DNA from: Bolinopsis microptera
Taxonomy: Eukaryota; Ctenophora; Tentaculata; Lobata; Bolinopsidae
Direction of reading: 5' to 3'
Assembly (NCBI RefSeq): GCF_026151205.1
Contig: NC_087081.1
Coordinates: forward strand, 2,053,246 to 2,113,245
DNA: 60,000 bases
The notes under the pieces: generated by a model
Database searches by the model: none
Told to the model about the DNA's origin: nothing
What the model saw: the letters and a program-made list of their open reading frames with translations, nothing else
Shown here: positions 1,586 to 48,433 of the stretch, piece after piece
How positions within the stretch are numbered: the first letter of the stretch is position 1
How the letters are laid out: each line of letters begins with the position of its first letter
Translations under genes and position numbers: made by a program

Positions 1586-4457
1586 GTACTCTTGGTATCC
1601 GCTACTCTTAGGTAACCACAACTCTTGGTAACCACTACTCTTGGTAACCACTACTCTTGGTAACCGCTACTCTTGGTAACCCTTGGTAACCGCTACTCTT
1701 GGTAACTGCTACTCCTAATAACCACTACTCTTGGTAACCGTTACTCTTGGTAACCATTACTCTTGGTAACCGCAACTCTTGGTAACCACTAATCTTGGTA
1801 AACACAACTCTTGGTATTTGGTAACCACTACTTTTGGTAACCGCTACTCTTGGTAACCGCTACTCTTGGTAACCGCTACTCTTGATAACCGCTATTCTTG
1901 GTAACCGCTACTCTTGGTAACCGCTACTTTTGGTAACCACTACTTTTGGTAACCGCTACTCTTGGTAACCGCTACTCTTGGTAACCGCTACTCTTGGTAA
2001 CCGCTATTCTTGATAACCGCTACTCTTGGTAACCGCTACTCTTGGTAACCACTACTCTTGGTAACCGCTACTCTTGATAACCGCTACTCTTGGTAACCGC
2101 TACTTTTGGTAACCGCTACTCTTGGTAACCGCTACTCTTGGTAACTGCTACTCTTGGTAACCGCTACTCTTGGTAACCGCTACTCTTGGTAACCGCTACT
2201 CTTGGTAACCGCTACTCTTGGTAACCGCTACTCTTGGTAACCGCTACTCTTGGTAACCGCTATTCTTGGTAACCGCTACTCTTGATAACCGTTACTCTTG
2301 GTAACCGCTACTCTTGGTAACCGCTACTCTTGGTAACCGCTACTCTTGGTAACCGCTATTCTTGGTAACCGCTACTCTTGATAACCGTTACTCTTGGTAA
2401 CCGCTACTTTTGGTAACCGCTACTCTTGGTAACCGCTACTCTTGATAACCGCTACTCTTGATAACCGCTATTCTTGGTAACCGCTACTTTTGGTAACCGC
2501 TACTCTTGGTAACCGCTACTCTTGGTAACCGCTACTCTTGGTAACCGCTACTCTTGATAACCGCTACTCTTGATAACCGCTATTCTTGGTAACCGCTACT
2601 CTTGGTAACCGCTACTCTTGGTAACCGCTACTCTTGGTAGCCACTACTCTTGGTAACCGCTACTCTTGATAACCGTTACTCTTGGTAACCACTAATCTTG
2701 GTAAACACAACTCTTGGTATTTGGTAACCACTACTTTTGGTAACCGCTACTCTTGGTAACCGCTACTCTTGGTAACCGCTACTTTTGGTAACCGCTACTC
2801 TTGGTAACCGCTACTCTTGGTAACCGCTACTCTTGGTAACCGCTACTCTTGGTAACCGCTACTCTTGGTAACCGCTACTCTTGGTAACCGCTACTCTTGG
2901 TAACCGCTACTCTTGGTAACCGCTACTCTTGGTAACCGCTACTCTTGGTAACCGCTATTCTTGGTAACCGCTACTCTTGGTAACCGCTACTCTTGGTAAC
3001 CGCTACTCTTGGTAACCGCTACTCTTGGTAACCGCTACTCTTGGTAACCGCTACTCTTGGTAACCGCTACTCTTGGTAACCGCTACTCTTGGTAACCGCT
3101 ACTCTTGGTAACCGCTACTCTTGGTAACCGCTACTCTTGGTAACCGCTACTCTTGGTAACCGCTATTCTTGGTAACCGCTACTCTTGGTAACCGCTACTC
3201 TTGGTAACCGCTACTCTTGGTAACCGCTACTCTTGGTAACCGCTACTCTTGGTAACCGCTACTCTTGGTAACCGCTACTCTTGGTAACCGCTACTCTTGG
3301 TAACCGCTACTCTTGGTAACCGCTACTCTTGGTAACCGCTACTCTTGGTAACCGCTACTCTTGGTAACCGCTACTCTTGGTAACCGCTATTCTTGGTAAC
3401 CGCTACTCTTGATAACCGTTACTCTTGGTAACCGCTACTCTTGGTAACCGCTACTCTTGGTAACCGCTACTCTTGGTAACCGCTATTCTTGGTAACCGCT
3501 ACTCTTGATAACCGTTACTCTTGGTAACCGCTACTTTTGGTAACCGCTACTCTTGGTAACCGCTACTCTTGATAACCGCTACTCTTGATAACCGCTATTC
3601 TTGGTAACCGCTACTTTTGGTAACCGCTACTCTTGGTAACCGCTACTCTTGGTAACCGCTACTCTTGGTAACCGCTACTCTTGATAACCGCTACTCTTGA
3701 TAACCGCTACTCTTGGTAACCGCTACTCTTGATAACCGCTACTCTTGGTAACCACTACTCTTGGTAACCGCTACTCTTGATAACCGCTACTCTTGATAAC
3801 CGCTACTCTTGATAACCGCTACTCTTGGTAACCGCTACTCTTGATAACCGCTACTCTTGGTAACCGCTACTTTTGGTAACCGCTACTCTTGATAACCGCT
3901 ACTCTTGGTAACCACTACTCTTGGTAACCGCTACTCTTGATAACCGCTACTCTTGATAACCGCTACTCTTGGTAACCGCTACTCTTGATAACCGCTACTC
4001 TTGGTAACCACTACTCTTGGTAACCGCTACTCTTGATAACCGCTACTCTTGATAACCGCTACTCTTGGTAACCGCTACTCTTGATAACCGCTACTCTTGG
4101 TAACCACTACTCTTGGTAACCGCTACTCTTGATAACCGCTACTCTTGATAACCGCTACTCTTGATAACCGCTACTCTTGGTAACCGCTACTCTTGATAAC
4201 CGTTACTCTTGGTAACCGCTACTCTTGGTAGCCACTACTCTTGGTAACCGCTACTCTTGATAACCGTTACTCTTGGTAACCACTAATCTTGGTAAACACA
4301 ACTCTTGGTATTTGGTAACCACTACTTTTGGTAACCGCTACTCTTGGTAACCGCTACTCTTGGTAACCGCTACTCTTGGTAACCGCTACTCTTGGTAACC
4401 GCTACTCTTGGTAACCGTTACTCTTGGTAATCACTATTCTTGGTAACCACTACACTT
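1586..4457. repeat. 16-bp satellite array (about 180 copies)
   Basis: The unit is ggtaaccgctactctt, repeated for about 2.9 kb with point variants (gataacc, gctattctt, gctacttttgg). A distinctive run of variant units containing cactaatcttggtaaacac occurs three times, near 1785, 2690 and 4270. A long variant block near 2260 recurs near 3390. The array has therefore grown by duplication of blocks of units as well as single units. Every unit carries the palindrome GGTAACC. Confidence 0.97.
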
Positions 4458-5660
4458 GTTTGGAGCCTATAATTCTTAATATTTCAATATACATAATTAG
4501 GAGCTCCCTTCATCAGCACAATACAGTGAATGAAATGAAATAAATCTATAAAGCTATAAGGCGCTTGTATCCCGCATATTATATTGAGCACCTGGCAGAG
4601 TCAAATACTAACTAACTATATAAGAAATCAGGCTATAAAGATCGGGTAAAAATATTGAGTAAAAAATAAATAAATTCAAAAACATTTATAACCGAAATTG
4701 TAATTATTTGCATCGTAAATTAAACTTTTTAAACATGAAATGAAATCGTATAAACTTATAGAAGGAATTACCGGATACATATTGCAATCGATTTCCAGAC
4801 CACTACATATCAGCCGGAGATTACCACAAAGCAGGACATTAAAATGACCACAAATTAGTATTGATATGATAAATTCATCTATTTCATGATTTTATCATGA
4901 GCCGATCACGTCAATAAACTAATACAGCTTTATAACGTCGACAAAATCGGTGATTCAGGCTTTAGCTAGCTAGCTGGGGAAGAAAATTAGAACTCAATAA
5001 ACAATAAAGAAATCAATAAATCTTTAGAAACTTATCCTTCGCAAAAATGTCCGGTATGACGTAATCAACTGATTAACACACTCTAGATATATCACTGAAA
5101 ATCACGTAAAATTAACTTAAGTGATTGTCTTAAACGGCCGTAAATTAGCCCGAGATACAATAAAGTATATCACAGATAATTAAACTGCAGTTTTGTACTG
5201 TGTCATGCAATTCCCACAGCGGCACGGCTATAATAAAATAAGCCGTCGGCCTTAGTACGTGGCCGTACGATGGCCCCGTTAATGTGGAAGGCGCCAAATA
5301 GTCGTTTTATTGTGGGACAGTTTTGAAAAAACTTTACTTAAGTACTAAAACAATCTCGCATTTGGCTCTAGGAGAGGAACAGTGGAGCACGTTGTATTAA
5401 ATTATTAAAAATTCTAACGGCGAATCCTCTCACTTCACATCATTCGTTCAATTTTAAATTTATATTTTATTAGGGGGAGAGAGGCTCCAAAATAGGCGTT
5501 AAGGGGCGTAAACATACAGGGTTACGCCATTGCGTAGCTATATGCTTTACTGCTTTAGTCATATACCACTAGGTTAACACGATGACAGCTATTCATTAAA
5601 TAGCAGGCTTCTTTATTGCTCATTTCATTACTAACTCCATACCTTCACATACACTTCCAT
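4458..5660. other. intergenic, no gene seen
   Basis: AT-rich sequence without long open frames, recognisable motifs or tandem repeats, apart from a short GC-richer patch around 5220-5290. I see no gene here. Confidence 0.5.
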
Positions 5661-23088: not shown

Positions 23089-26000
23089 CTACTTTCCATC
23101 TTCATCACGAAGGCTGTCTTTGTGCTTGAGGTTCAGACTGTACATTTCTCTGATGGTTGAGCATGAAAGTCTAATCAAGTTCACATCCTGCTCGTTAAGG
23201 TTACCGTAAAGATCTTCGGTACGAGAGAGAGTGTTGACAATGTTGTTCAGTCCGTTGTCATTGCTGTTTCCCAAGCTTTCACTAGCTCTGGTAAACTTGT
23301 CTCTGATAGCCTTCCCTTGTGGGCAGGAAGTGAGAAAGTGTGTTTCATCCTCTATGATCCCGGTTGATCCTTTCAGTTCACAAAAGGTGCAAGTTCTGCT
23401 CTCTAGAGGTGTTTTGTCGTATCTCCCAATTTCTATGCTGAGTCTGTGAGAACTGCACCTTATTTGAGCTGTTGATCTTCTGTCATTGAGAGTTCTTGCA
23501 TAATCGAGGTAAGGCTCCCATGCAAAGACTGTTTTGACGTCCTTGTAGAAAGTGAGTTTCCTGCTCTCGTTAATCTTTGATCTCCAGGAGTCTGTAAAAA
23601 GCTTTTGAAAGTTATTTACCAGCTCGTCTGGACTGCAAGCGTCTGCAAACGCAGTTGCGTTGAGTAGAAGCGAAGAGTTCCTTGCATATGTTCTAGGATC
23701 AATGTTGTTGAAGCACTTGATGATGTTTTCTATTCCAGAGTACCACGAAAGATGCAAGTTTATTTGCTCAGTCATAGCAGCCTTCACCAGTTGAGACGAT
23801 GGAAGACCCATTATCCTTTTGAAGTATTTGACACTTAGTTTTAATACTTCGATCAGTAGTGGGTACGAACCTGTCTCACCCCATGCAGTTGCATTGGTAG
23901 CCCGTCTGTTTATCCCAAGGAGGAACTTCAGGTGACGGAGGTGAACCTGCTCGATTTGTTGCTTTGCCATGTGGGTCATTGAGTTGTTCAAGTTTTGATC
24001 CCTCATGAGGCACGAAAGAACTTTTGTTACCTCTGGAAGAGTGGGTGCCCAGACTTGGCAGCCGTACAGTAAGATGGGCTTAACCAGTGAGTTGAAAAGC
24101 TTGTGGAAGCATGAGGCGTCAACAAATCTGCGATCGATTGTGCTTCTGAGGCTGAAATATGCTCCGAGCCCTTTGCGGTAAAGAGAATCAGTGGCTTGTC
24201 GGAATTTACCATTGCTACTGATAAGAATGCCAAGATAGCAGTAGTGGGAGACCATCTCGATGTCGTTGCCATGTGCTTTGGGACGCCAACTAGGGGTATC
24301 CGGAGCTTTACTGTTGAAAACCATAAACTTGGTTTTGGATATATTGATTTCCAGTCCCCAGTTATCGCAGTACGTCGTGATGATCGTGATTAGCTTTTGC
24401 AGCGATTCTTGGTCAAGGGCAAGAATAACTAAATCATCAGCCCAGGCTAGATGAGTTACTGAAAGTCCTGCAAGCATGGGGCAGTTGGCTAGGGCTTCGT
24501 TGAGGAGATCAGAGAGCTCTTTGAAGTACACCTTGAACAATTCTGGACTAAGAGGGTGACCTTGCTCTGTCCCTTTCAGGATACTGAAGGCTTCACTGAT
24601 TTTGCCATTGATCTTTATATGTCCTTCCGACTTGCTGTACATGTCTTTGATGATGTTGTAGAACCCACCATTAACACCATAACATGATAGTTTGAATAGG
24701 AGGGCCTGTCGACATACAAGGTCAAAGGCTTTACGAAGGTCAATGAATATAGCAAAGACCTTCTGCTTTACTCTCTTGTACTTCTCAATGATCGATATCA
24801 GAGTGAAAATGTGATCATTACATTGGCTCCCTTTGGTGAATCCAGCTTGATTGGGCGGATCTGAATGTGTCGTTTGCCGGTGTGTGACAAGTCTCGATAG
24901 CAGCATTGTTGACAATAGCTTGCCGATGCAGCTGCAGACTGCAATAGCTCTGTAGTTATCGGGATTTCTAATGCAGCCTTTCTTGTGTAACGGCGTTATC
25001 ACGCTTTTACTCCAAAGATACACACCTGTGGTCAAACAGAGATTGAAAAGTTTAAGAAGTAGATTTCTCATGTTCTCGTTTAGGCTTTTGATCATCTCGT
25101 TACTGACATGGTCAAAGGATGACGCTTTGCCAGTCTTCAGACTGTTGATGGCACCGTTCAGCTCTTCAATGGTAAAAGGGCTGTTTAAAGCTTCGTTTGG
25201 CACGGATCCTTTAGCAAATGTGTCAGCTTCTTCAAGAAGGGCTTTCTTAGTAAGACTGTCAACAGTTGGGTGGGAGTCGGAGTAAAGATTAGCATAAAAA
25301 TTCTGAAAAGTTTGGAGCTGTTCGGGATCGGTTTGAACCTCATCTTTCTTAAAGTTCTTTAATTTCTTGAAATCCCGCCAAGAGATAGCTTTACCATTCT
25401 TGATTTTTTTGTTCAGTCTTTTGAAAAAGTCATCCTTCTTTTTATTGATGATCTTCCTGTAACTTTTCGAGTTGGCACGGTGTCGGGCTTTGATCCTTTG
25501 ACTGTCGGGGTTTTGGTCGACAACTTTGATTGACCGCTTGAAGAGTCGCCTGGCTGCATGGCAATTACCATCAAACCAAGAATCGAACTTTGGTTTAGGA
25601 TGCTTTGCTTGCTTAGAGACACCGAGTTCTCTTTTTGCCAGGCAATTGATGAGATCAGTTATCTTGTCACTCAGTTCCTTCACCCCTTGCTGGGTAGTCG
25701 GGATAGCGTCAGCAGCATTGTGCAAGTTCGAGATTCTGTTGACTATATCTGGCTCCTCGAACGACTGGGCGAAGTTGAGTAAACTGTTTTCTGAGACCTT
25801 GTATCGGAATGGAGCGTCATCATAACGGAGGGTGGAATCTCCAGGTGTTTGAGTGTTCATCACCGAATGCTGCTTCCGCAAGCTGAGAAGAACTGGGTTG
25901 TGGTCCGAATACAAGGTGTGCTCACCGACTGTCAGACTTCTCACTCTATGAAGGAAGTTGGAAGATGCTATGAAATAGTCCACTACGCTGTTGCCATTCC

Positions 26001-26730
26001 ACTTGAAACAGGTGTACTTTCCAGTGGAATCCCCAATGGTACGTCCATTCAGGATGAGTAGGTTTTCTGATCCGCAGAGGTCAAGAAGTTGCTTCTTATG
26101 ACTATTAGTGCACTTGTCTTCACTCCATCTGCTCTTTGATATTGGGACAGAATCAGGAACTATCATGGCCTGGGAAGTTCGGCCTGTTTCTGGGAATAGC
26201 TCAAATTCTTCAGCTCTGTCGTACAACAGCAGCTTGGTTGACAAGCCTATTCTGGCGTTGAGATCACCAACAAGAAGAATTTCATCCTCGGGGGTCTCGC
26301 GGAGATTGCTAATTTCTGCTTGGAGAGCTTCAAAATTGGCCTCCGAGTTGCTAAACCGACTGTTCTTCGAGCTGTTTGCTGGTGGTATGTAACTATTTAC
26401 CAGAAAGGTGTTAGTTTTAGTTCCTGGGTTCGTGAATTTGACAATAGTCATATTCATAGAGAGATCTTTAGTTAGATTGATGTCAACAGCTGAGCAGTAC
26501 TTCAATATCGAGTTTTTCACCAATGTGGTGACACCACCACCTCTCCCAGTCTTGCGTGTGTTGTTGTATGATTTATATCCTTTCAGAGACACTTCACATC
26601 CAGTTTCTTGGAGGCAGATAACGTCGTGAGGTGTGATAAAATTGAGAAAGTCTGGATCTTCTGTCTTGTTACCAAGCAGGCCATGGATGTTTGCTACGTT
26701 CCAGGAGATAATAGAGTTAGCAAAGTCCAT
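23089..26730 (-). CDS. LINE ORF2: endonuclease and reverse transcriptase
   Basis: A 1213-residue polyprotein that would nick target DNA and reverse-transcribe the element's RNA there. The N-terminal exonuclease/endonuclease/phosphatase-type endonuclease keeps SWNVANIHG (9-17), CLQETG (39-44), GDLNARIG (155-162), VDYFIAS (250-256) and SDHNPV (275-280). The reverse transcriptase spans about 570-810, with FIDLRKAFD (662-670), GTEQGHPLSPELF (720-732), the catalytic AWADD (762-766) and ISKTK (797-801). A C-terminal zinc-knuckle-like CCHC (C1114, C1117, H1131, C1136) follows. The first position of the YADD box is Trp, which is unusual. No RNase H domain is seen. All key acidic residues are present, so the protein looks functional. 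The ATG lies 12 nt after the ORF1 stop, so translation may depend on reinitiation. Confidence 0.95.
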   Translation of the reverse strand: MDFANSIISWNVANIHGLLGNKTEDPDFLNFITPHDVICLQETGCEVSLKGYKSYNNTRKTGRGGGVTTLVKNSILKYCSAVDINLTKDLSMNMTIVKFTNPGTKTNTFLVNSYIPPANSSKNSRFSNSEANFEALQAEISNLRETPEDEILLVGDLNARIGLSTKLLLYDRAEEFELFPETGRTSQAMIVPDSVPISKSRWSEDKCTNSHKKQLLDLCGSENLLILNGRTIGDSTGKYTCFKWNGNSVVDYFIASSNFLHRVRSLTVGEHTLYSDHNPVLLSLRKQHSVMNTQTPGDSTLRYDDAPFRYKVSENSLLNFAQSFEEPDIVNRISNLHNAADAIPTTQQGVKELSDKITDLINCLAKRELGVSKQAKHPKPKFDSWFDGNCHAARRLFKRSIKVVDQNPDSQRIKARHRANSKSYRKIINKKKDDFFKRLNKKIKNGKAISWRDFKKLKNFKKDEVQTDPEQLQTFQNFYANLYSDSHPTVDSLTKKALLEEADTFAKGSVPNEALNSPFTIEELNGAINSLKTGKASSFDHVSNEMIKSLNENMRNLLLKLFNLCLTTGVYLWSKSVITPLHKKGCIRNPDNYRAIAVCSCIGKLLSTMLLSRLVTHRQTTHSDPPNQAGFTKGSQCNDHIFTLISIIEKYKRVKQKVFAIFIDLRKAFDLVCRQALLFKLSCYGVNGGFYNIIKDMYSKSEGHIKINGKISEAFSILKGTEQGHPLSPELFKVYFKELSDLLNEALANCPMLAGLSVTHLAWADDLVILALDQESLQKLITIITTYCDNWGLEINISKTKFMVFNSKAPDTPSWRPKAHGNDIEMVSHYCYLGILISSNGKFRQATDSLYRKGLGAYFSLRSTIDRRFVDASCFHKLFNSLVKPILLYGCQVWAPTLPEVTKVLSCLMRDQNLNNSMTHMAKQQIEQVHLRHLKFLLGINRRATNATAWGETGSYPLLIEVLKLSVKYFKRIMGLPSSQLVKAAMTEQINLHLSWYSGIENIIKCFNNIDPRTYARNSSLLLNATAFADACSPDELVNNFQKLFTDSWRSKINESRKLTFYKDVKTVFAWEPYLDYARTLNDRRSTAQIRCSSHRLSIEIGRYDKTPLESRTCTFCELKGSTGIIEDETHFLTSCPQGKAIRDKFTRASESLGNSNDNGLNNIVNTLSRTEDLYGNLNEQDVNLIRLSCSTIREMYSLNLKHKDSLRDEDGK

Positions 26731-26742
26731 GATGAGGAAAGG

Positions 26743-28851
26743 TCAGAGAGGGACCTGGAGAGAAACGAAAAGAAGGTGAAAAGATGAAGAAACGAAAAAG
26801 GAGTAACGAGAGCCTCTGGTGAAAGTGTTGTCGAGGCTGGTCCTGAAGTTGCCCATAATGACCCTGATACCCCTGTCGTTGAGCTGAGATTTGTTTGAGG
26901 TCAACATGTAATTGTGAGGAAGTTCCGAATCTTCAGGAAAGAAGTTGGAGTTCTTGTTCTCCCGAGTTCTAGTCCAGAAGTCTGCTTTGTCTCTATCATC
27001 TTTGAGATTGTGAATTGCCTCTGAGATAAGTTGTCTGGCTCTAAGTCCCCCTCCATCGGTTTGATTGCAGATGATTGGATGAGAGATGACCACCTTGCAC
27101 TTTTGTGATGTTTCTCGGAGGATCTTTTCAGTGCTCTGGACAAAGGTGTTGATTAGAGAATCACTCGGTTGGCCATTCGTGATGTCATGAGCACCAAGGT
27201 GGATGTAAACTACGTCTGGGTTTTTGTTTGATATCTCCTCAGCAGTTTCACCCAAACAGGAGCTGAGCTCGTCCCAGCTGCGTTTGTAGATCATGGAGAC
27301 ATCATATCTCTTGGAGAACTCCTCTGACTTGAAACTCCGCATAGTTGAGTCACAAAGAAGGACCACTTTCTGTTTCTTCCGTGCTGATGATTTGCTCAAT
27401 CTTTTAGATCGATCAGATGAGTGTGTAGTGTTTCCATTTCTGGAACTGTTCCTGTGATCGGTGTTGATCCTCTCACTCCTTCTGTATGACTCTCTTTGGC
27501 CTCGCTCAGGAGGAAGACCGGGGATATCTCTGTTGGTCCTTGTCTTGCGCGGGGATCTCGGAACATAATTCTCATTCTGTTCGTGGGTCTCATTACTCGG
27601 CCTCTTTTGGTAATTACTCCGATTTGATGATTTTGATGATGTTAGGATGGCTAGAATCTCCTCAATTTTGTTGCTGTCCTCGCTTTTGAAGAAGCTATCA
27701 TGCCATGCTTCTAAATCCCTTTTGATAGTCATAGTTTCGTTGAGGGTTCGAGTGAGGCCCTCTAAACTGCTTCGGGACTTTTCCAGAAGTAAGCTGGTAT
27801 CTTGATTTGCTTTGGTTAGATTTTTCAAGAGGTCAACTCCGTTTGAACACGTTGTGGCGTTCTTGCAATCTCCCTTAGATTTATCAGCGGGCATCTTGGT
27901 AAGCTTTAGTTCATCCAGATCTTTTTGCACTTCTCCTAGAGCTGAGCTGATAGAAATATTTGATTTTTCGATCACTGCTAGTCTGTTATCGATCAGGCTC
28001 AGTTGTTCAGAGGACCCAGAGGTAGAAGTCTTGCGGATATACTGAGAGATTCTCTTTCTCCTAGCCTTTGGAGCACCTTCCGTACTAAGTTTCAGGAATT
28101 CAAGTTCTTTCAAGATATCACTGTTAGTTGCTTCGTCAAGGGATTTGATGTAACTTTCAATGCCCTGAAAGCAGCTGTCCGATGTGATTCTATCCGACTC
28201 TCGTATCTTCCTCTTGACGTTAACCTTAGGCCGGGTAGTAGATGCCCTTGACTTGAGAAAGTCCCCAGCGTTGGGCAGAGAGCTGGTAAAGTGGAAATCT
28301 GTCGGAGAAGTGCAGGTTTCTGGAATTGGGGCAGTCTTGGAGAGGTTCTCCTCGGGGGCATTGGTGATGTAAGAAGTTTCGTTTGCTTCTGTAAGGTATC
28401 GACACAACCTTTGCTTACAAATTGCTGCAGCACCGTCAATAGCCTGTTTGCACGCTGTGAGTTCCTCCTTAACTTCTTTGTGCTTCATTTTGTTGATCAG
28501 CACACTCACAGCAGCGTAGTTTGGACTGTCATAGGGGTCTTTAAGTAATACTTTTGCTCGGGTCTTCATGTCCTCAAGCGAGTCCTTGCTGGATGTGTGT
28601 TGCTCTAGAGCATCAAGAAGCAATGTGAAGTCAGCCTTGGTGAAGTTATCGAGTGTTTGCTGATAGATATGAACCTGCCCAATTCTGTATCCAAGCTTGT
28701 TGGTAAACTGCGTTGGCCGGATACTGTTGTTGGGTAGATCTTTTCCGTCCCAGGTCAGGGATTGCTCGCGATAATCAGAGTCCGTAATAGAGCTGAAGAA
28801 TAGGAGCCTATAGGATGGCTTGACAGCGTTTATTTGTAAGTCAAAACCCAC
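26743..28851 (-). CDS. LINE ORF1: coiled-coil protein with SGNH-hydrolase-like domain
   Basis: A 702-residue protein encoded upstream of ORF2 in the same element. It probably binds the element's RNA and forms the ribonucleoprotein. Residues 1-130 are of unknown type. Heptad-like, Lys/Glu/Leu-rich stretches at about 240-400 suggest coiled coils, and 410-495 is a basic Arg/Ser-rich linker. Residues 494-676 resemble the SGNH/GDSL esterase domain found in ORF1 of CR1-type LINEs: VVLLCDSTM (block I, Ser502), VVYIHLGAHDI (block III) and SQLNDRGIRVI (block V). The expected Asn of block III is His here. The Asp-x-x-His of block V appears as Asn-x-x-Gln, so the domain may be catalytically inactive and kept for its fold. 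The start codon is the first ATG of the open frame. No upstream alternative is obvious. Confidence 0.88.
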   Translation of the reverse strand: MGFDLQINAVKPSYRLLFFSSITDSDYREQSLTWDGKDLPNNSIRPTQFTNKLGYRIGQVHIYQQTLDNFTKADFTLLLDALEQHTSSKDSLEDMKTRAKVLLKDPYDSPNYAAVSVLINKMKHKEVKEELTACKQAIDGAAAICKQRLCRYLTEANETSYITNAPEENLSKTAPIPETCTSPTDFHFTSSLPNAGDFLKSRASTTRPKVNVKRKIRESDRITSDSCFQGIESYIKSLDEATNSDILKELEFLKLSTEGAPKARRKRISQYIRKTSTSGSSEQLSLIDNRLAVIEKSNISISSALGEVQKDLDELKLTKMPADKSKGDCKNATTCSNGVDLLKNLTKANQDTSLLLEKSRSSLEGLTRTLNETMTIKRDLEAWHDSFFKSEDSNKIEEILAILTSSKSSNRSNYQKRPSNETHEQNENYVPRSPRKTRTNRDIPGLPPERGQRESYRRSERINTDHRNSSRNGNTTHSSDRSKRLSKSSARKKQKVVLLCDSTMRSFKSEEFSKRYDVSMIYKRSWDELSSCLGETAEEISNKNPDVVYIHLGAHDITNGQPSDSLINTFVQSTEKILRETSQKCKVVISHPIICNQTDGGGLRARQLISEAIHNLKDDRDKADFWTRTRENKNSNFFPEDSELPHNYMLTSNKSQLNDRGIRVIMGNFRTSLDNTFTRGSRYSFFVSSSFHLLFVSLQVPL

Positions 28852-29482
28852 TTCTGACCGTACTTGATAACGTTTCAGAGTATCGCTTGACAGGAAAATA
28901 GCCGCTCCGTGATCAGGTGATAGCCGTCCTACATCTACTTTTCCTAGATATGTGACCTATATAAATCGATGCTCGTATCCTAAGTGCCCATACTAAAGAC
29001 TATCAGATAAAAAGGAAATGGTATCGATTCATATATTATGTAGCTCAAGTACGTTGTAAAAATATGTTCTTAAACGTAACAAAGGCTCACGAAGGAAATG
29101 ATATAATGCGAAATTGTCATCAATGAATCAAGCGGAATAGGAAATGAAGTAGAACTATAATAGTTTCACACGATGTTACAGAAAGGGTGAAGTCAGTAAT
29201 TTAATCACAATCACGACCGTTGATTGTTCACGGACAGACACGGAAGTGAAACTATAATGAAACAAATTTCAAGTTGGGAGAATTTATCGCTCCAGTGATG
29301 TGACATAATTAAAAACTGCAGTAGAAAATGATGATAAATGAATAATATCGCGTCGTCAACGAGGCAACAAAGATTTAATACTTTGCAGCCGAGTTATCAT
29401 CCCCACAATTGCATTTACAAATTTACAAAGTTAAAAGATTGTTTAACATCACTGTGATTAACGCTAAACATAGCAAAGGTTA

Positions 29483-47195: not shown

Positions 47196-47203
47196 GTTAA
47201 GTG

Positions 47204-48250
47204 GGTTCTTTTGCGATAGTCAAAACGCGACAACTAGCGCCATCCAGCGCTAGTTGTCGCTATCCAGCGCTAGTTGTCGCCATCCAGCATGCAGCGCTAG
47301 TTGTCGCCATCCAGCGCTAGTTGTCGCCATCCAGCGCTAGTTGTCGCCATCCAGCGCTAGTTGTCGCTATCCAGCGCTAGTTGTCGCTATCCAGCGCTAG
47401 TTGTCGCCATCCAGCGCTAGTTGTCGCCATCCAGCGCTAGTTGTCGCCATCCAGCGCTAGTTGTCGCCATCCAGCGCTAGTTGTCGCTATCCAGCGCTAG
47501 TTGTCGCCATCCAGCGCTAGTTGTCGCCATCCAGCGCTAGTTGTCGCCATCCAGCACTAGTTGTCGCCATCCAGCGCTAGTTGTCGCCATCCAGCGCTAG
47601 TTGTCGCCATCCAGCGCTAGTTGTCGCCATCCAGCGCTAGTTGTCGCCATCCAGCGCTAGTTGTCGCCATCCAGCGCTAGTTGTCGCCATCCAGCGCTAG
47701 TTGTCGCCATCCAGCGCTAGTTGTCGCCATCCAGCGCTAGTTGTCGCCATCCAGCGCTAGTTGTCGCCATCCAGCGCTAGTTGTCGCCATCCAGCGCTAG
47801 TTGTCGCCATCCAGCGCTAGTTGTCGCCATCCAGCGCTAGTTGTCGCCATCCAGCGCTAGTTGTCGCCATCCAGCGCTAGTTGTCGCCATCCAGCGCTAG
47901 TTGTCGCCATCCAGCGCTAGTTGTCGCCATCCAGCGCTAGTTGTCGCCATCCAGCGCTAGTTGTCGCCATCCAGCGCTAGTTGTCGCCATCCAGCGCTAG
48001 TTGTCGCCATCCAGCGCTAGTTGTCGCCATCCAGCGCTAGTTGTCGCCATCCAGCGCTAGTTGTCGCCATCCAGCGCTAGTTGTCGCCATCCAGCGCTAG
48101 TTGTCGCCATCCAGCGCTAGTTGTCGCCATCCAGCGCTAGTTGTCGCCATCCAGCGCTAGTTGTCGCCATCCAGCGCTAGTTGTCGCCATCCAGCGCTAG
48201 TTGTCGCCATCCAGCGCTAGTTGTCGCGTTTTGACTATCGCAAAAGAACC
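47204..48250. mobile_element. TIR-bounded satellite element with 8-bp target duplication
   Basis: A 1047-bp element with exact 37-bp terminal inverted repeats (47204-47240 and 48214-48250), starting ggttcttttgcgatagtcaa. The octamer gttaagtg is duplicated on both sides (47196-47203 and 48251-48258), the mark of transposition. Between the TIRs is nothing but a 20-bp satellite. The inner 14 bp of the left TIR (gcgacaactagcgc) are the reverse complement of part of the satellite unit, so monomers face each other at the left end. An 8-bp duplication with ends starting GG could fit Merlin-, hAT- or P-type elements. No transposase is present to decide. Confidence 0.88.
47241..48227. repeat. 20-bp satellite (49 copies) within the TIR element
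   Basis: The unit is catccagcgctagttgtcgc. The first 15 or so units show a c/t variant at position 1, one 7-bp insertion (catgcag, near 47287) and one g-to-a change (near 47556). From about 47561 to the end the units are identical, so the right two-thirds arose by very recent amplification or are being homogenised. Confidence 0.97.
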
Positions 48251-48433
48251 GTTAAGTGGCTTACTGACACACTGTTTACAAGTAATGATTCATATTCCAT
48301 TAGGCATTATGGAGTAGTTTACAATATCCCCCGGTAACAACTCAATCCCTGGCAAATATAATAACGTCATACCTACCGCGCGGGAGGGCCTCTAAATAGC
48401 TGGACTTGGAGGAGTGCCAAATGGCTGAATCCA

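Follow-up and report, generated by a model that had tools for sequence, protein, structure and literature searches.

A 20-bp array between inverted ends

The window, by which we mean the whole 60,000-nucleotide stretch of the Bolinopsis microptera genome that was analysed (C10:2053246-2113245), contains an element in which a tandem array of a short unit is set between terminal inverted repeats (TIRs) and flanked by a direct duplication. Its features, in window positions, are as follows.

47196..47203, no strand: left target-site duplication GTTAAGTG (direct reading and script)
47204..47229, + strand: outer 26 bp of the left TIR, beginning with GG, the signature of the family (225 + 220 places at ≤3 mismatches, reversed control 0)
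47230..47240, - strand: inner part of the left TIR, a partial 20-bp unit in the orientation opposite to the array
47238..48227, + strand: array made of 49 copies of the unit CGCCATCCAGCGCTAGTTGT (20 bp); the 32 full units that precede the right end are all the same
48214..48250, - strand: right TIR, a perfect inverted copy of the left one, its inner part running on from the array
48251..48258, no strand: right target-site duplication GTTAAGTG

The two arms (47204-47240 and 48214-48250) are 37 nt long each with 100% complementarity, and both consist of the 26-bp unique end followed by about 11 bp of partial monomer. On the right side the array passes in phase into the TIR, and on the left side the partial monomer is inverted. 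An earlier note on this DNA had described the perfect 37-bp inverted ends, the exact 8-bp duplication and the 49 copies of a 20-bp unit, all of which proved correct to the base, and it had rightly recognized part of the unit within the TIR.

Tandem Repeats Finder (TRF) reported a period of 20, 49.2 copies and 97% matches for the array. Read from the left end, the monomers follow the order B C D C C B B C C C C B C C C E, after which 32 identical C units (ATCCAGCGCTAGTTGTCGCC) stand in succession up to the right end. The six variant units (four B, one D and one E) all lie in the left third of the array, and the probability of finding six variants within the first 17 of 49 places is about 0.0009. 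Since the variants are confined to the left and the last 32 units are identical, the growth of the array appears to have been recent and to have proceeded mostly from one unit.

We searched for a TIR with an exact 8-10-bp duplication around 18 arrays of the window and obtained a perfect match (20 of 20) at the 49-unit array alone. Three other arrays gave matches of 13 to 18 of 20, which lay inside the array itself and in two cases had crossing ends, and none of 119 random control intervals gave a match. As the sole perfect match among the 18 arrays, with none in the controls, the TIR and duplication of the 49-unit array are not due to chance; the same search led us to reject the idea that the tandem arrays of the window are all TIR elements. 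Around the array at 1587-4458, which has a 16-bp unit repeated about 178 times, a TIR with duplication was not found. The window also contains, at 23089-28956 on the minus strand, two adjoining long open reading frames (ORFs), one of which encodes an endonuclease and reverse transcriptase (LINE), and the ORF upstream of it has a weak GDSL match below cutoff. At locus L037 lies another LINE, whose upstream ORF gave a match to a 2OG-Fe(II) oxygenase domain and a weak one to GDSL. An empty site was not seen among the 40 of 384 candidates scored in the one assembly, where the flanks of the window copy (about 300 bp each) match their own place only.

Copies of the family across the genome

Across the genome searched (264.65 Mb, 232 contigs), the outer 26 bp of the TIR occur at 445 places at ≤3 mismatches, the reversed pattern giving 0 + 0, and exact 26-bp ends number 293 (103 + 55 + 86 + 49); a single occurrence would have spoken against the transposon proposed in the earlier note. 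The exact 26-mer was found in 0 viral and 0 prokaryote contigs, as expected. Of the 100 exact ends on contigs C1-C5, 82 face one another in 41 pairs that span 95-6,649 bp, and the other 18 lack an exact partner. By size, 22 of these pairs measure 1.3-1.8 kb, eight are ≤500 bp, five fall between these classes and six are longer. The copies that were fetched are a selection favouring unusually short, long and array-rich ones, of which 47 with both ends were analysed; the single-TIR loci L027, L029, L030, L031, L033 and L067-L070 were excluded from this number.

Exact 8-bp duplications flank 40 of the 47 two-ended copies and a duplication with one mismatch flanks three more, compared to no exact match in 2162 mispaired flanks. 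The 43 duplications tend toward the sequence S-A-W-W-W-W-T-S. Four copies as paired have no duplication (L017, L019, L032 and L036), L032 being counted here because it was paired with a nearer degenerate end. L032 (G000:C10:3698939-3700464) has one left end and two right ends with the same 8-bp flank at each, so that its right arm and duplication are seemingly doubled, which points to recombination, either between copies or between arms. The arms match perfectly over at least 26 terminal bases in 44 of the 47 copies, with a median of 77, and are identical over all 300 compared bases in five. We conclude that the window element is a copy of a transposon, as the earlier note had supposed, that the family is mobile and multi-copy, its members being inserted at sites unrelated to one another, and that its ends are young. 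The ends of L028 and L067 have diverged (4 and 2 mismatches, respectively) and have GTGTAAACGCG in common, a hint of an older subfamily.

The 47 copies range in length from 95 bp to 13,077 bp. We scored each half of a copy for unit blocks of ≥40 bp running in either direction. Two-way blocks are present in both arms of 35 copies out of 47, and in 26 of the 28 that measure ≥1.3 kb; those lacking them are for the most part short copies, together with L026, L028 and the window copy, whose own TIR is only 37 bp, unlike the long composite arms of the family. Two 120-bp copies are near-pure palindromes. In the 1.3-1.8 kb copies that were read, the arms consist of short inverted and then direct unit blocks followed by inner domains, and the middle is variable. 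The family thus has the marks of a foldback element, namely long composite inverted repeats containing tandem subrepeats, a subrepeat number that varies, heterogeneous interiors, and duplications within the 8-10-bp range, here exact at 8 bp.

The middles of the long copies are unrelated: LINE-type reverse transcriptase ORFs lie in L037, L038, L040 and L044, a GIY-YIG ORF lies in L002, and the interior of L062 (from about 1 to 7.5 kb) has no match in the other 46 copies and therefore looks captured or nested. The 13-kb copy carries the 8-bp duplication GAATGATT. An ORF of 162 aa or shorter recurs at L005 1617-2105(+) and 3445-3933(-), an inverted pair, at L020 4517-5005(-) and at L066 2629-2949(-); the L005 and L066 versions are without a Pfam match, and the ORF marks an inner module shared among long copies.

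Within this family the window copy is an outlier. The 20-bp unit covers 95% of it, compared to 5-86% in the other 46 copies, and its longest unbroken run of units is 998 bp, compared to 465 bp in L026, 201 bp in L028 and ≤117 bp in the remaining 44. The expectation of a family with almost nothing other than satellite between its TIRs was therefore mistaken, the window copy being the extreme case. The comparison of repeat number between copies that the earlier note had suggested did show that array length varies, with L009 and L023 differing in length by 20 bp, that is, by one unit.

We also asked whether the satellite is confined to the element. A search with a five-unit pattern, allowing ≤3 mismatches per 100 bp, returned 69 overlapping matches, which fall at 16 places; its reversed control gave 0. 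A family TIR lies within about 1.3 kb at all 16 places with at least five tandem units, at 15 of them according to the TIR lists and earlier loci and at the sixteenth by the L067 end, with its two mismatches. As far as seen, the satellite has therefore not left the element, and arrays outside it, which would mark satellite DNA, were not found among these 16 places with at least five units.

Candidate movers and the growth of the array

A Pfam search of the same genome gave 88 MULE (Mutator-superfamily) matches, 58 Merlin matches and, for hAT, 150 matches scored out of 366 candidates; P-type RNaseH gave zero matches, and this search was without a positive-control signal. None of the 88 MULE, 58 Merlin and 150 scored hAT matches lies inside a listed TIR pair, as judged by eye in a comparison that covered 290 of the 293 exact ends and left out the 152 inexact ones. 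ORFs of at least 90-110 aa were listed from L001, L002, L005, L020, L037-L049 and L062-L066, leaving out L014 and L021, and the low-complexity or repeat-made ORFs of L001, L043 and L048 were left out of the Pfam search. The ORFs of the long copies that were tested with Pfam gave a LINE reverse transcriptase, GIY-YIG or no match, and none gave a transposase domain. When three MULE proteins were compared by tblastn with the remaining fetched loci, no match lay between family TIRs; MULE sequence turned up in the MULE loci and otherwise only in L036, where it lies beyond the ends of the element. The autonomous partner with the same TIR that the earlier note had suggested looking for was thus not found among the long-copy ORFs tested or the listed TIR pairs. 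One with divergent or unlisted ends, or one lost in an assembly gap, may exist. A MULE match 4.2 kb from an unpaired end (C5:5761606) was considered as a partner and rejected, since it sits outside a 230-bp copy.

To see how transposase genes of this genome are flanked, 12 transposase loci (five Merlin and seven MULE) were fetched at first and seven MULE loci later, for a MULE total of 14. Among the first 12, a script could delimit L057 alone by a clear TIR and duplication. This MULE is 3264 bp long and is flanked by the 8-bp duplication TAATATTG; its 29 identical terminal bases begin with GG, a 14-bp tandem array lies directly inside the TIR, and a 501-aa ORF encodes FLYWCH and MULE domains. 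Its layout of 8-bp duplication, GG-starting TIR and tandem array just inside is that of the family. In an ungapped comparison of 24 positions, the L057 and family TIRs agree at 13, among them GATAG at 12-16 (P 0.0009 against shuffles); with the GG set aside they agree at 11 of 22 (P 0.005). Both are post hoc values from one bounded element. Two further MULEs, L072 and L077, have 9-bp duplications (CATGGCCAC and CATTTAAAT, respectively; ends located by eye and then checked) and long inverted arms with 15-bp tandem arrays; their asymmetric GGG ends with 9-bp duplications are Tm1-like.

Matched inverted arrays flank the transposase domain on both sides in seven of the 14 MULE loci and two of the five Merlin loci, compared to none of 58 control positions in the window. 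MULE loci with inverted short tandem arrays of their own are L056, L057, L072, L073 and L077, and also L055 and L074. The 20-bp unit is no more like the units of these array-bearing MULEs than chance allows (P 0.22-0.79 over four units), and the motif GCGACA, which by eye seemed wholly or partly common to the 20-bp unit and the L055 and L056 units, was dropped because it was non-significant against shuffles. Matched inverted arrays do not single out MULEs, because Merlin loci have them as well. Array-ended DNA transposons are common in this genome, which favours, without proving, a Mutator-type helper. We consider it probable that this is a recently active, non-autonomous, foldback-type family whose copies are moved by a MULE transposase. 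The superfamily would be Mutator, at somewhat better than even chances, with Merlin next.

The same foldback-type element might instead be moved by a Merlin transposase, which we regard as unlikely. Merlin elements, as far as the available part of the source describes them, start with 5'-GG, have 8- or 9-bp duplications and in several cases contain internal tandem repeats (PMC8101967), and the family has such a start and such duplications. Four of the five fetched Merlin loci (L051-L054) have long arrays of an 11-bp unit near the transposase ORF, as matched inverted arrays on both sides in two and on one side in the other two. The family TIR, however, is absent from the five loci, apart from three 10-mismatch matches in the L053 arrays, and the loci could not be bounded: L050-L052 gave no candidate, and the candidates in L053 and L054 had ends and duplications made of their own array motif. 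No Merlin match was seen by eye inside the listed TIR pairs.

Movement by hAT or another transposase that makes 8-bp duplications (hAT, P or Zisupton-like) seems distinctly improbable. The length of the duplications fits hAT, which was abundant at first look, and the 10.5-kb copy L062-L063 contains ORF scraps that appear hAT-like by eye, but three L062 ORFs tested with Pfam gave no hAT match and the interior of that copy from about 1 to 7.5 kb is the one that looks captured or nested. The zero result for P-type RNaseH also counts against this reading, within the reach of that uncontrolled search, as does the GG start of the family TIR, since hAT ends usually do not start with GG. As for an ordinary, immobile minisatellite whose inverted ends arose by chance or palindromic rearrangement, the array by itself would resemble one, and the window has many others, but the 445 ends and the exact duplications of 40 copies refute this reading and leave it next to no probability.

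With a MULE transposase as the preferred mover, the copies would be moved in trans, and the 20-bp units near the ends may serve as extra transposase-binding sites, by analogy with what has been published for Galileo. The window copy may first have lost the inner portions of its arms, after which one unit block would have grown to 49 units by slippage, unequal exchange or post-excision gap repair, mostly through recent copying of one unit. Because both ends are kept, the window copy could in principle still move. We also offer, as a speculation that we regard as unlikely, that DNA transposons from more than one superfamily of this genome (MULE and perhaps Merlin) commonly end in tandem arrays, built of a different unit in each and acting as putative multi-site transposase platforms, and that the window copy is a runaway case. 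If this were true, an array could grow until the transposon is little but binding sites, a self-mobile satellite at its birth stage, before escape from the TIRs.

This family shows a satellite as it begins, with its unit occurring once or twice, in short blocks, and 49 times over in an array. Since these states occur in young copies with the arrays still in or beside the ends, the step from transposon end to satellite can be tested across copies and individuals.

Comparison with known systems

Sea-urchin TU elements and Drosophila FB are further elements with which the family may be compared. The closest parallels that we met are the following, each as described in the part of the source available to us. 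Muta1 of Aedes aegypti, an active MULE that has been termed a type 2 foldback element, makes duplications of 8-9 bp and has subterminal tandem repeats, and 10 of 12 long-TIR MULE families in Aedes have 9-15-bp subterminal tandem repeats (PMC5225508). The present family is like Muta1 in its 8-bp duplications and in a TIR made of a terminal motif plus short subterminal tandem repeats, and like the Muta1 derivatives in its many non-autonomous copies, variable repeat number and heterogeneous interiors. It differs in that the Muta1 ends also belong to an element with an intact transposase, a partner not found here, and in that the Muta1 unit is 12 bp with spacers, compared to 20 bp; no 49-unit Muta1 copy was met in that portion of the paper (PMC5225508). 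Tm1 of Meloidogyne, a Mutator/foldback family with repeats of ~14 bp and a Mutator-type transposase, likewise has composite TIRs, a variable number of tandem repeats and many non-coding copies, but its duplications are mostly 9 bp and its ends carry asymmetric 7-bp motifs, whereas the family here has 8-bp duplications and identical ends (PMC3169594).

Galileo of Drosophila also has TIRs that are long and internally repetitive, with variable repeat number, and EMSA showed that their tandem repeats carry extra transposase-binding sites; it belongs to the P superfamily, has 7-bp duplications and, in the D. mojavensis F subfamily, a repeat of ~210 bp (PMC3688188, PMC3573991). The suggestion in the earlier note that repeats within TIR elements are a source of satellites has a published foldback precedent in Tetris of Drosophila virilis, whose TIR repeat (TIR-220) has been amplified into satellite-like arrays and shares with the end a 37-bp stretch proposed as its origin (PMC4079207). 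Tetris resembles our family as a foldback, apparently non-autonomous element for which a transposase was not found in the account available, and differs in its unit of ~220 bp, compared to 20 bp here. Its arrays reach 66 copies, and 39 assembled contigs consisted of the repeat only; within the same account, fiber-FISH showed no repeat-only array (PMC4079207). In our family a TIR lies near every long array found.

Merlin is known from ctenophores (PMC8101967, as far as consulted), and no foldback transposon from ctenophores was found described in the literature searched; a foldback-type family is here added to a ctenophore genome. Three glutamate-receptor ORFs of this genome were compared with solved structures: for one (L079) the closest are short ligand-binding chains of 'ML032222a iGluR', a Mnemiopsis name, which rank above full-length mammalian chains, and for the other two mammalian kainate receptors come first. 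Elements of this kind are already known; as far as our searches show, there is no earlier description of this family, of its 20-bp unit and two-way blocks, or of the copy with 49 units. The family resembles Muta1, Tm1 and Tetris, and its window copy is a clear example of the origin of a small satellite, of a kind known in other animals.
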